From: Gemmatimonadaceae bacterium
GTDB lineage: Bacteria > Gemmatimonadota > Gemmatimonadetes > Gemmatimonadales > Gemmatimonadaceae
Length of the DNA stretch: 64,000 nucleotides
NCBI GenBank assembly: GCA_947457545.1
Contig: CANGXD010000003.1
Span: forward strand, 1 to 64,000
Direction of reading: 5' to 3'
Under the pieces are notes generated by a model that saw nothing but the letters and a program-made list of their open reading frames with translations, had not been told where the DNA came from and did no database searches. The position numbers were made by a program, and so were the translations under genes. Positions 30,967-35,697 of the stretch are shown in pieces; the first letter of the stretch is position 1; each line of letters starts with the position of its first letter.

Positions 30967-32481
30967 TCAGACCGGGGCCAGCGTCGGCGCCGGCGACGGC
31001 GCCCCCTTCTTGGCCGGGGCACCGCCGATCAGTTCGGCCACGATCTTGCCCGAGGCGATGACGCCGGGCAAGCCGGCGCCCGGATGGGTCCCGGCGCCGC
31101 AGAAATACAGGTTGGGGATGTCCTTGCTCTGGTTGTGCGGGCGCATATACGCCGACTGCGTGAGCACGGGCTCCGGGCCGAACGCGCTGCCCATGTAGCT
31201 GTTGAGCGTATTCTGGAAGTAGCGCGGATCGATACGCCGCTCCGTGACGATGTGCTTCTGCAGGTCGGGGACGTACCGGTCCTCGAGGTACTGCATGATG
31301 CGATCGCGGTAGCGCTGGCCGACCGCTTCCCAATCGGTGTTGCTCCCCAGGTGCGGCACGGGGGAGAGCACGTACCAGCAATCGTGGCCCGGCGGCGCGA
31401 GCGACGGATCGGTGGCCGTGGGGCGGTGCAGGTAGAGCGAGAAATCATCGGAGAGGATCTTCTTTTCGAAGATGTCCTCGAGCAGCGACTTGTAGCGCGG
31501 GCCCATGATGATTTCGTGGTGCGCGATGTTGTCGTACTTTCGGTTGGTGCCGAAGTACACGACGAACAGCGACATGCTGTGGCGCAGGTTTTCGACCTTC
31601 TTGTTCGGCACACTGGGCCGCGCCGCGGCCGGCAACAGCGTACGATACGCCTGCACGAGGTCGCCGTTGCACACCACCGCATCGGCCTTGAGCAGCTGCC
31701 CCGTCTTGAGCTTCACGCCGCTCGCGCGTCGCTTCTCGTCGACGAGAATTTCCTGCACTTCACTCTCGAGACGGATTTCGCCGCCGAGGTCCTCGAACGC
31801 CTGCACGAGCGCGCGCACCAGTGCCCCGGTGCCGCCCATGGCGAAGAGAACACCCCACTGCTGTTCGAGCTTGTGAATGAGCGCATACACGCTCGACGAG
31901 CGGAACGGATTGCCACCGACGAGCAGCGGGTGGAAGGAGAACACCTGCCGCAGGCGATCGTCCTTGATGTACTTCTCGGCGAGGCCGGCCACCGACACGT
32001 CGGCACGCGTGCGAATGAGGTCGGGGATGACGCGCATCATCGAGCCGATCGACAGGAACGGCTTGTCGATGAGCGGCATCCCGATGTTGAAAATGTCCCA
32101 CGACTTCTCGCGGAAGCGCTGGTAGCCCTGCACGTCGCGCGGGGAGAACTCACCCACCTGACGGATGAGATCTTCCTTGTCGCCGTTGTAGTGGAAGACC
32201 GTACCGTCTTCGAACCGGATGTTGTAGAACGGGTCGAGGAGGACGAGCTTGATGTAGTCTTCGGTTTTGCGGCCCGTCAGCGCGAACAGTTCATCGAGCA
32301 CCCACGGGGCGGTGATGATCGTCGGGCCGCCGTCGAACGTGAAGCCATCCTGTTCGAAGACGTACGCGCGCCCTCCCGGTTTATCGAGTTTCTCGACAAC
32401 CGTGACTTGGTGCCCCTGAGCCTGCAAGCGAATGGCTGCGGCGAGTCCGCCGAAGCCGCTGCCGATGACGACAATGCGCAT
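30967..32481 (-). CDS. crtI: Phytoene desaturase
   Basis: 504-aa FAD-dependent carotenoid desaturase, membrane-associated. The N-terminal dinucleotide fold VVIGSGFGGLAAAIRL and GGRAYVF is present, and the C-terminal CrtI signature GAGTHPGAGLPGVIASGK is complete. It converts phytoene to neurosporene or lycopene, or further; step number cannot be read from sequence. It is the last carotenoid gene in crtB-cruF-small protein-crtI. The C-terminal tail is Ala/Pro/Lys-rich. Confidence 0.95.
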   Translation of the reverse strand: MRIVVIGSGFGGLAAAIRLQAQGHQVTVVEKLDKPGGRAYVFEQDGFTFDGGPTIITAPWVLDELFALTGRKTEDYIKLVLLDPFYNIRFEDGTVFHYNGDKEDLIRQVGEFSPRDVQGYQRFREKSWDIFNIGMPLIDKPFLSIGSMMRVIPDLIRTRADVSVAGLAEKYIKDDRLRQVFSFHPLLVGGNPFRSSSVYALIHKLEQQWGVLFAMGGTGALVRALVQAFEDLGGEIRLESEVQEILVDEKRRASGVKLKTGQLLKADAVVCNGDLVQAYRTLLPAAARPSVPNKKVENLRHSMSLFVVYFGTNRKYDNIAHHEIIMGPRYKSLLEDIFEKKILSDDFSLYLHRPTATDPSLAPPGHDCWYVLSPVPHLGSNTDWEAVGQRYRDRIMQYLEDRYVPDLQKHIVTERRIDPRYFQNTLNSYMGSAFGPEPVLTQSAYMRPHNQSKDIPNLYFCGAGTHPGAGLPGVIASGKIVAELIGGAPAKKGAPSPAPTLAPV

Positions 32482-32964: not shown

Positions 32965-33927
32965 TCAGCGGGCGCTCAAGGCGCCATCGCGGACACCGGC
33001 CGACGGCGAGGTGCCGAGGCTCGTCAACGGCGCCGGATCGTTGCGAAGGGCGGCCCAGAGCGGCACCACCATCGCGATCGTCCCCAGGATACCGGCCGGT
33101 ACCATGTCCCAGCGCAAGCAGATGGCAATCGGCAGCAACCCGTTGATGGCGTAGAGCGCAATCGGCAACCGATGCGGCGCCACCTTGCTCACCCATTCCG
33201 ACGGGGGAATGATCATGAGCATCACCCGCGCCACCAGAATGCCGGTGAGCAGCCAGCCAAGCCAATTCGTAATGGGCATCCCGAAAAAGATGGGCTTGCC
33301 GATCAGCTGCTCGAAGGCGCTGCGGTCAGCCAGGTCACCCATCTGCCAGAACCAGTGATTGGTCTTCACCATCGCCGGATCCATGGACACGTCCCACAGC
33401 GTCAACACCACACCGCCGACGAACGCCCACCACCACTTGGACACGTTGTCGTCCTTGGCTGGCAGGAACCGCCCGCAGATGGCGAGCGACGCGACCAGCA
33501 TGTAGAACCATGACGTCGGGATGTTGAACGGGACCCGATCGAACAGCTTGTACCCGAGCTGGCTGGTGTACTCGTACGCCCCGAACGGGTAGTCCGTCAC
33601 GGTGCCGAGATACTCCGACGTAAACGCGAGCAGGAAGGCGACGCCGAACGTGATCAGCGCCTTGCGAACTCCCACCGCGTACGCGAGGAACGCGAGCCCG
33701 GAGATAGCACCAAGGGTGACGGTAGTCGCACCGCCGTACGCATAGCCGACCGCCATGACCTTCTGGTTCTGGGCAGTCTGCAGCCAATCGGGATAGGGCG
33801 GAAGCAGGAACGTGGCGAAGGCGAACGCCGAGAACGCGCTGAAGGCCAGGTGGCCGAGCAGCGTGAGCGTGGCAATACGAAACAGCGTCGACTTCGAGGT
33901 GTCCTGAAGGTCCGTGTAAGAAGTCAT
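32965..33927 (-). CDS. cruF: Carotenoid 1,2-hydratase, CruF type
   Basis: 320-aa polytopic membrane enzyme (about seven spans) of the CruF/DUF422 family, which adds water to the psi-end group of acyclic or monocyclic carotenes to give tertiary 1-hydroxy groups. FTSEYLGTVTDYPFGAYEYT and WDVSMDPAMVKTNHWFW carry the conserved acidic and aromatic residues. It starts 12 bases after crtB. Together with crtI it supports an acyclic dihydroxy-type carotenoid end product; that is pathway inference. Confidence 0.88.
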   Translation of the reverse strand: MTSYTDLQDTSKSTLFRIATLTLLGHLAFSAFSAFAFATFLLPPYPDWLQTAQNQKVMAVGYAYGGATTVTLGAISGLAFLAYAVGVRKALITFGVAFLLAFTSEYLGTVTDYPFGAYEYTSQLGYKLFDRVPFNIPTSWFYMLVASLAICGRFLPAKDDNVSKWWWAFVGGVVLTLWDVSMDPAMVKTNHWFWQMGDLADRSAFEQLIGKPIFFGMPITNWLGWLLTGILVARVMLMIIPPSEWVSKVAPHRLPIALYAINGLLPIAICLRWDMVPAGILGTIAMVVPLWAALRNDPAPLTSLGTSPSAGVRDGALSAR

Positions 33928-33939
33928 GCGAACTGCACC

Positions 33940-34923
33940 TCAGGCGAGACGGACAAGTGCGTCGGCGTTGGACGACGCAGCGTTGGGTTCCCAGACAATG
34001 CGCGGGCCGTGGCCCAGCGCCGAAAGATCAGGGGTGGGGGCACGATAGCGCCACGCGTTCCACAAAATTCCCACGCGCGCCAGCCGGCCGATGCGGGCCC
34101 GCGACGTAATGGTGTCGTAGCCCTGGGCTTCGATCGCCGAGAGAATGCCGGCGTACCCGTTGGCGCAAGCCGCCGCACAGCGCTGGGCATCGGCCTCGAG
34201 AAGCGCAATGCCAGGCATCGCCGCGGCATAGAGCGCTCGTGCACGGCTGACCTCGAATGCCATGAGCTTGGCCCACGATGGGTTCCGGGCCAGCGCCGGA
34301 TCCCGGGACAGCACGTCCTGCGCGGTCAGGCCGAAGCGGGCCATGTCTTCCGCCGGGAGGTAGCACCGCCCGCGGTGGGCATCTTCGCCAACGTCGCGCA
34401 GGATGTTGGTGAGCTGCATCGCGGTGCCCAGCGTGCGCGCGTACTGAATGGCCTTGGTGCGCATGGCCGGTCCGGCGGGCACACCAAAAACATACGTGCA
34501 CATCTCACCGACCGAGCTCGCGACCCCTTCGCAATACTGCTCGAGCGCCGGCCACGTGTCGTAGGTGTGCGCCTCGAGGTCTCGCCCCACGCCGTCGAGC
34601 AGTTCGAACAGCGGGTCAGGCGCGACGTCGTACGCTCGCGTCACCCAGGCCATTTCGCGGAAAATCGGTCCTGCGGGGCGGCCGTCGAGCGCTGACTGCA
34701 GTTGCTCGCGATAACCATCGAGCTGAATGCGGAGCTCGCCCAGATTGTCGTGGTCCGCCTGGTCGACAAGATCATCGGCGACGCGGCAGAAGGCGTACAA
34801 GCCATAGGCGGCGCGACGTTTATCGAGCGGCAGCAGCTTGCTGGCCAGCGAAAACGTTCGCGCGTGGGTCATGGTGATGCGCGCGCACTCCGCGGCATCG
34901 CTGAGCGAAGCGGGTGCGATCAT
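33940..34923 (-). CDS. crtB: Phytoene synthase
   Basis: 327 aa. Condenses two geranylgeranyl diphosphates to phytoene. The two Asp-rich metal sites are RVADDLVD (about residues 47-54) and RDVGEDAHRGRCYLP (about 176-190), and LTNILRD is conserved. First gene of the leftward carotenoid operon. The upstream 408 bases hold tandem TGT-N12-ACA elements, so regulation by light or redox is suggested. Confidence 0.95.
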   Translation of the reverse strand: MIAPASLSDAAECARITMTHARTFSLASKLLPLDKRRAAYGLYAFCRVADDLVDQADHDNLGELRIQLDGYREQLQSALDGRPAGPIFREMAWVTRAYDVAPDPLFELLDGVGRDLEAHTYDTWPALEQYCEGVASSVGEMCTYVFGVPAGPAMRTKAIQYARTLGTAMQLTNILRDVGEDAHRGRCYLPAEDMARFGLTAQDVLSRDPALARNPSWAKLMAFEVSRARALYAAAMPGIALLEADAQRCAAACANGYAGILSAIEAQGYDTITSRARIGRLARVGILWNAWRYRAPTPDLSALGHGPRIVWEPNAASSNADALVRLA

Positions 34924-35331
34924 GCCACCGAACTCGGGAGACGCCGAGGATTCATCGAAGCGATGTCAGGCAGGGATGAGGATGGCACACACAGGGCAAA
35001 CGCCGACGGGCGCACTGACTGGAACTTAACGCGAGCGAGGGCTGCGGGTTCCTGCGCGTCAGTGCGGGACAGCGGTTCGGCTCTGATCATACTAATGAAA
35101 TTGCGACCGCTCGGTCCAACTGTCAACATATTTTGACACTCGAAGTGTCAGGCGACCGTTACAGTCCCGGCGCATACCCAAGCCGCTTGACGGGGACGAG
35201 GCGCGGCTTCACGTTGGCGGTTCTGGCCGATCAGCTTGCCGACCGGTGCATTCCATTACCATTCGGGATGCCGGGCGCAGCGATCCGCGCTTCCCGCCCA
35301 TAATCAGGCCCGACTCCCCAGTGCCTGTTCG
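34924..35331. promoter_or_regulatory. 408-base divergent control region between crtB and nuoA
   Basis: No gene is visible. It is locally AT-richer near 35085-35140 than the rest of the window. It contains the dyads at 35121-35163, and a short AGCCGC/GCGGCT stem at 35181-35208. TTGACA occurs on both strands inside the first dyad, but good -10 boxes at the correct spacing were not found on either strand. Confidence 0.7.
35121..35163. promoter_or_regulatory. Tandem TGT-N12-ACA operator pair (PpsR/CrtJ-type pattern)
   Basis: Site 1, 35121-35138, is TGT-N12-ACA with extended symmetry TGTCAA-N6-TTGACA. Site 2, 35146-35163, is also exactly TGT-N12-ACA. They are separated by 7 bases, close to the 8-base spacing known for paired CrtJ sites in purple bacteria. 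An overlapping dyad TGACACT-CGA-AGTGTCA spans 35134-35150, so another dimeric regulator is an alternative. It lies about 200 bases from crtB and 170 from nuoA. Confidence 0.5.
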
Positions 35332-35697
35332 ATGACGCCGTATATCACGTTCCTGCTGTACTTCACCGCCATCGTCGGCTTTGTCGGCCTGGCGCTGACC
35401 CTCAATGCGTTGCTGGGCCCCAAGCCCACCGCCACGTCCACCAAACTCGAACCGTTTGAATGCGGTGCGACGGTCGTGGACGTCATCAACGTGAAAGCCG
35501 TCCCCATCAAGTACTACGCGGTGGCGATCGCCTTTTTGCTGTTCGATCTCGAGACAATGTTCTTGATCATCTGGACCCTCGGCGCGCGACCGCTCTCGGG
35601 GTTCATGGTGTTCACGTTCTTCCTGTTCACCACGTTGCTGGTGCTGTGCCTCCTCTATGTGTACAAGGCACGCATCCTCGAAGCTGTGACGGAGTAG
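35332..35697 (+). CDS. nuoA: NADH-quinone oxidoreductase subunit A
   Basis: 121-aa membrane subunit of complex I with three spans. The conserved loop KLEPFECG (about residues 40-47) and LFDLETMFL in the second span identify it. First gene of a complete nuoA-N operon. The ATG at 35332 begins the homology; the frame is open upstream without matches. nuoB starts 3 bases after the stop. Confidence 0.95.
   Translation: MTPYITFLLYFTAIVGFVGLALTLNALLGPKPTATSTKLEPFECGATVVDVINVKAVPIKYYAVAIAFLLFDLETMFLIIWTLGARPLSGFMVFTFFLFTTLLVLCLLYVYKARILEAVTE

Follow-up and report, generated by a model that had tools for sequence, protein, structure and literature searches.

A predicted tandem PpsR operator over the crtB promoter of phototrophic Gemmatimonadaceae

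The carotenoid gene crtB and the complex I gene nuoA are divergent neighbours in the stretch of Gemmatimonadaceae DNA analysed here (64,000 nucleotides of contig CANGXD010000003.1, referred to as the window; its genome is G000), and two TGT-N12-ACA dyads lie between them. The question is which protein would bind these dyads, and which of the two genes they serve. A preliminary description had proposed control by the photosynthesis repressor PpsR/CrtJ. For crtB, this proposal is strongly supported by an encoded PpsR, by the conservation of the dyads among phototrophs and by the presence of the same motif at promoters of the photosynthesis cluster, all of which are read from sequence.

The dyads and the crtB promoter

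The two exact elements, TGTCAACATATTTTGACA (proximal to crtB) and TGTCAGGCGACCGTTACA (distal), are present 7 bp apart as had been described (Table 1). Single TGT-N12-ACA matches are not special in the window (13, versus 8.8 +/- 3.0 in shuffles). When the 408-bp intergenic region was shuffled 20,000 times with dinucleotides preserved, no pair with a 24-27 bp period arose, and the extended form TGTCAA-N6-TTGACA occurred once. The exact N7 tandem is found once in the 4.63-Mb genome, where the reversed-pattern control gives none, and in 7 of 30 genomes, upstream of crtB in six of those seven; it was not found in the 11 order-level relatives searched.

Table 1. Positions of the dyads, promoters and neighbouring genes in the window
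Feature	Position	Strand	Basis or remark
Proximal PpsR dyad (predicted), TGTCAA-N6-TTGACA	35121-35138	-	Exact match; right half, read on the minus strand, forms the predicted -35 box of crtB
Distal PpsR dyad (predicted)	35146-35163	-	Exact match; 25 bp from proximal dyad
Predicted crtB promoter, TTGACA-N17-CAATTT	35098-35126	-	-35 at 35126-35121, -10 at 35103-35098
Predicted nuoA promoter, TTGACG-N17-CACGTT	35187-35215	+	Outside the dyads; conserved upstream of nuoA
crtB, phytoene/squalene synthase family, first carotenoid operon gene	33940-34923	-	NCBIfam HpnD/CrtB families, below equivalog cut-offs
cruF-like carotenoid 1-hydratase gene	32965-33927	-	NCBIfam CruF family 132.6 bits, below cut-off of 400
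crtI-family phytoene desaturase gene	30967-32481	-	TIGR02734 625.8 bits, above cut-off
nuoA, adjacent gene, unsupported as target	35332-35697	+	NuoA family

In the operon, crtB is followed by cruF and then crtI. As noted earlier, the proximal site overlaps TTGACA boxes on both strands; only the minus-strand box is conserved together with a -10 element at a distance of 17 bp. This TTGACA half-site is the predicted -35 box of crtB, so that the operator would overlap the core promoter of a pigment gene. The promoter pattern TTGACA-N17-CANNTT is shared by genus phototrophs, G018 and genus g30, and counts of the -35/-10 spacer from the window and several regions of the cluster peak at 17 bp. The crtB, nuoA and puf promoters share the pattern TTGAC-N18-CANNTT (window 35098-35126 and 35187-35215; L094 puf region), which suggests that the -10 element in the Gemmatimonadaceae group studied differs from TATAAT. 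A standard scan of the region for sigma-70 promoters and terminators gave no match, the likely reason being a predicted -10 of CANNTT instead of TATAAT, and no known RNA element in the crtB-nuoA region scored above threshold. In the window genome the crtB spacer also has a GACC-N4-GGTC dyad, which was dropped as a candidate, since it is conserved only in the nearest relatives. It is worth noting that a short leader frame (34924-34960, minus strand) ends, in most genus phototrophs, in an ATGA overlapping the crtB start codon; it is possible that this frame and crtB are translationally coupled.

Conservation with phototrophy and the likely regulator

A PpsR homologue, on which the proposal depended, is encoded in the window genome (L001:1456-2931, minus strand). 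It is a full-length family match with PAS domains and a C-terminal FIS-type helix-turn-helix (HTH), scoring 477.5 bits against TIGR02040 (cut-off 275.4). Its neighbours are a BchG-like gene and a reading frame resembling aerR; in the relative G028, family models confirm bchG and ppsR, while the aerR assignment is based on reading of the sequence and on the ppsR-aerR gene order of annotated records. Two reaction-centre genes are also present in the window genome.

To follow the dyads across genomes, crtB was extracted from genus relatives together with the DNA upstream of it, and the sequences were anchored on the promoter pattern TTGAC-N18-CANNNT alone, the dyad itself playing no part in the anchoring. 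Exactly 12 bases upstream of TTGACA, a TGT is present in 23 of the 24 genus phototrophs, the exception (L017) being off by one base, and likewise in each of the five g30 genomes, versus 0 of 14 nuoA promoters of the same pattern. The distal dyad, with at least five of six bases matched and a 25- or 26-bp period, is found in 21 of the 24. The dyads are thus kept in the phototrophs of the genus, where a lack of conservation had been named as what would speak against them. In two genus non-phototrophs that are 99% complete (G004 and G020) the crtB-cruF-crtI-tig order is kept and the dyads are absent. Across the family, among genomes with readable DNA upstream of crtB, a dyad occurs in 31 of 42 genomes positive for PpsR or reaction-centre genes versus 2 of 21 negatives (Fisher value 1.7e-6, which is overstated, as the genomes are related and the counts not independent). 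Outside the window's own genus the numbers are 7 of 18 versus 1 of 18 (p = 0.04). Here, G017 and G027 were counted as phototrophs, having reaction-centre genes with PpsR not detected, and G008, with only 107 bp upstream of crtB, was left unjudged.

The wiring of PpsR to crtB is not universal, as no dyad was found near crtB in the PpsR-positive genera g46, g4, g25, g39 and g48. This counts against the PpsR reading, as do two PpsR-negative genomes with a dyad, G018 and G119. In G018, neither PpsR nor reaction-centre genes were detected; the G119 dyad is the same site as in its PpsR-positive congener G120. Both dyads may be relics of lost phototrophy or reflect incomplete assembly. G018 (L036) has kept the crtB promoter and just one dyad, CGTCAACGTAGATTGACA, in which one of the half-sites is changed.

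A weight matrix was built from crtB dyads alone (36 distinct sites, the proximal window site among them); it is partly circular for crtB, since training sites had to resemble TGT...ACA, and the photosynthesis cluster is not affected by this. The proximal dyad has the best score in the window (28.9) and the distal dyad a weaker one (13.9); these two are the only sites in the window above 9. That the motif should also occur upstream of bch and puf genes is borne out in the single-contig genome G028: matrix sites are found at bchG, at bchC, as a pair at puf, in the aerR-like/bchF interval, and in the interval between bchI and what is probably crtF, the gene that lies upstream of bchC. Several of these were found again in G029, G015, G012, G005 or G032, and the window genome also has the aerR/bchF-type and puf sites. 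Genome-wide counts of the single-dyad pattern show no excess over the reversed control, and single degenerate matches beyond the cluster are therefore not claimed as targets.

Two further arrangements were seen. In the aerR-like/bchF interval, two dyads share a common half-site with a 16-bp period (L220:2140-2173 in G000:C56; G028:C1:1563049-1563082), unlike the tandems at crtB and puf, which have a period of 25-26 bp. A second tandem in the window genome, CGTAACAGCTAGTTGACG-N8-CGTCACAAAAAATTGACA (L221:1541-1584; G000:C12:43140-43183), lies upstream of a small minus-strand gene whose frame, by eye, resembles a VOC/glyoxalase protein (no family hit), and is a possible further PpsR target.

Very probably, then, the dyads in the window constitute a tandem PpsR operator over the crtB -35 box, which would keep RNA polymerase off the resident crtB-cruF-crtI operon. 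PpsR, encoded in the horizontally acquired photosynthesis gene cluster, would bind both dyads. As one half-site is itself the -35 box, a plain steric model can be proposed, in which bound PpsR would cover the box and exclude RNA polymerase. One regulator would thereby set the carotenoid supply as well as the bch and puf promoters. It is improbable that a different regulator is at work, for example a B12-dependent protein of the CarH/LitR type or another dyad-binding carotenoid repressor, with the likeness to PpsR sites being incidental. G018 and G119 would fit such a regulator, but the matrix built from crtB dyads also recovers promoters of the photosynthesis cluster, and across the family the dyads track PpsR or reaction-centre genes.

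The neighbouring complex I genes

The preliminary description had also suggested that one repressor may set respiration. In that case the tandem would be a bidirectional operator, at which bound PpsR represses crtB together with the divergent nuo operon and so couples pigment synthesis with respiration. The two genes are divergent neighbours in five genus genomes (G000, G017, G028, G012 and G025), a local arrangement, and in the window some 24 bp separate the distal dyad from the -35 box of nuoA. However, nuoA has its own predicted core promoter, which does not overlap the dyads, and the pattern TTGAC-N18-CACGTT is conserved there in phototrophs and non-phototrophs alike. In G028 the dyads lie about 100 bp further from nuoA. 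The crtB dyads persist in genomes where crtB has another neighbour, and as nuoA does not adjoin crtB in most of these genomes, the dyads belong to crtB. Where nuoA lies apart from crtB, it was found without dyads. On these grounds complex I is rejected as a target, and the suggestion about respiration is unsupported; a bidirectional operator has little probability. That the pair is a chance pattern is next to impossible: single matches in the window are no commoner than expected, but the pair was absent from all shuffles, and conservation refutes chance, with half-sites kept in register while interior bases have diverged.

Likely recruitment, signal and known systems

The crtB-cruF-crtI operon is present in non-phototrophs, from which we infer that it is older than the dyads. 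The position of the dyads on the promoter of this resident operon suggests that it was recruited by PpsR after gene transfer. The promoter contexts of the crtB dyads differ among genera g1/g30, g34 and g47, so there was perhaps more than one capture in the family. In the crtB tree the deep branches are unresolved and long branches meet, and recruitment is not separated there from loss of sites. On balance, with odds only a little better than even, an imported PpsR captured the host's older carotenoid operon through new operators, perhaps repeatedly, while losing its HTH redox cysteine, and now coordinates pigment supply instead of acting as an oxygen sensor. Phototrophic Gemmatimonadota are in this sense a natural experiment in how transplanted photosynthesis is wired into a distant host. 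New here are the location of the probable operator outside the cluster, the probable recruitment of a resident operon, and an enlarged list of predicted PpsR targets.

The loss of the cysteine bears on the signal. Among PpsR of G000 and its relatives L043-L066, L178 and L179, each of the 26 Gemmatimonadota sequences that cover the HTH redox cysteine has Phe there, versus Cys in three proteobacterial references. This cysteine is variable within the PpsR family, and is absent in Bradyrhizobium PpsR2. In Rhodobacter, the corresponding residue, CrtJ Cys420, carries much of the redox response of PpsR (cited in PMC4452267). The substitution would lower redox sensing through that residue, without affecting membership of the PpsR family, and the earlier idea of a redox-sensing repressor is doubtful as far as PpsR itself is concerned. 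Loss of repression does not follow, because a Rubrivivax PpsR mutant with the equivalent Cys-to-Ala change still represses (PMC4452267). As the cysteine is missing, release would probably proceed through a partner, such as the AerR-like B12 protein, and not through oxidation of the PpsR HTH; the AerR-like neighbour is the more likely signal input. The predicted effect of the Phe fits the absence of oxygen control reported for the photosynthesis cluster of Gemmatimonas phototrophica (PMC11406998), and the change from Cys to Phe is a possible molecular reason for it.

In Rhodobacter capsulatus, the CrtJ/PpsR-AerR system (PMC6199135, PMC5362033) likewise has a PpsR-type repressor beside a gene for a B12-binding AerR-type protein, as well as TGT-N12-ACA half-sites; the HTH redox cysteine of that system is absent in Gemmatimonadota. 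The closest likeness in the operator itself is to Rubrivivax gelatinosus, whose PpsR binds paired TGT-N12-ACA sites and variants of them (PMC4452267). Its crtI and pucB operators are also two dyads of this type in tandem, at crtI on a carotenoid promoter, and at pucB the protected region overlaps both the -35 and -10 elements. Degenerate half-sites such as cGT or ACG occur there. The dyads are 8 or 9 bp apart in Rubrivivax, versus 7 bp in the window, a difference that counts against the PpsR reading, and 8 bp at puf of G028. Unlike in Rubrivivax, the target operon here is outside the photosynthesis cluster, belongs to another phylum and has crtB as its first gene, and PpsR carries Phe in place of the HTH cysteine.

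The G. phototrophica system very probably involves the same genus and the same regulator. In its main text, the 2024 transcriptome study of this species (PMC11406998) reports one PpsR site in the cluster, at bchID-puhE, and describes little regulation of the cluster by oxygen or light, which counts against the PpsR reading. The crtF/bchI region is recovered here too; the crtB operator and further cluster promoters are not mentioned in that main text. Degenerate half-sites, as known in Rubrivivax, may explain why one site was published and several are found here. In the view published there, regulation is minimal and the cluster has a single PpsR site, whereas the present comparison points to a conserved set of PpsR targets that includes a resident carotenoid operon.
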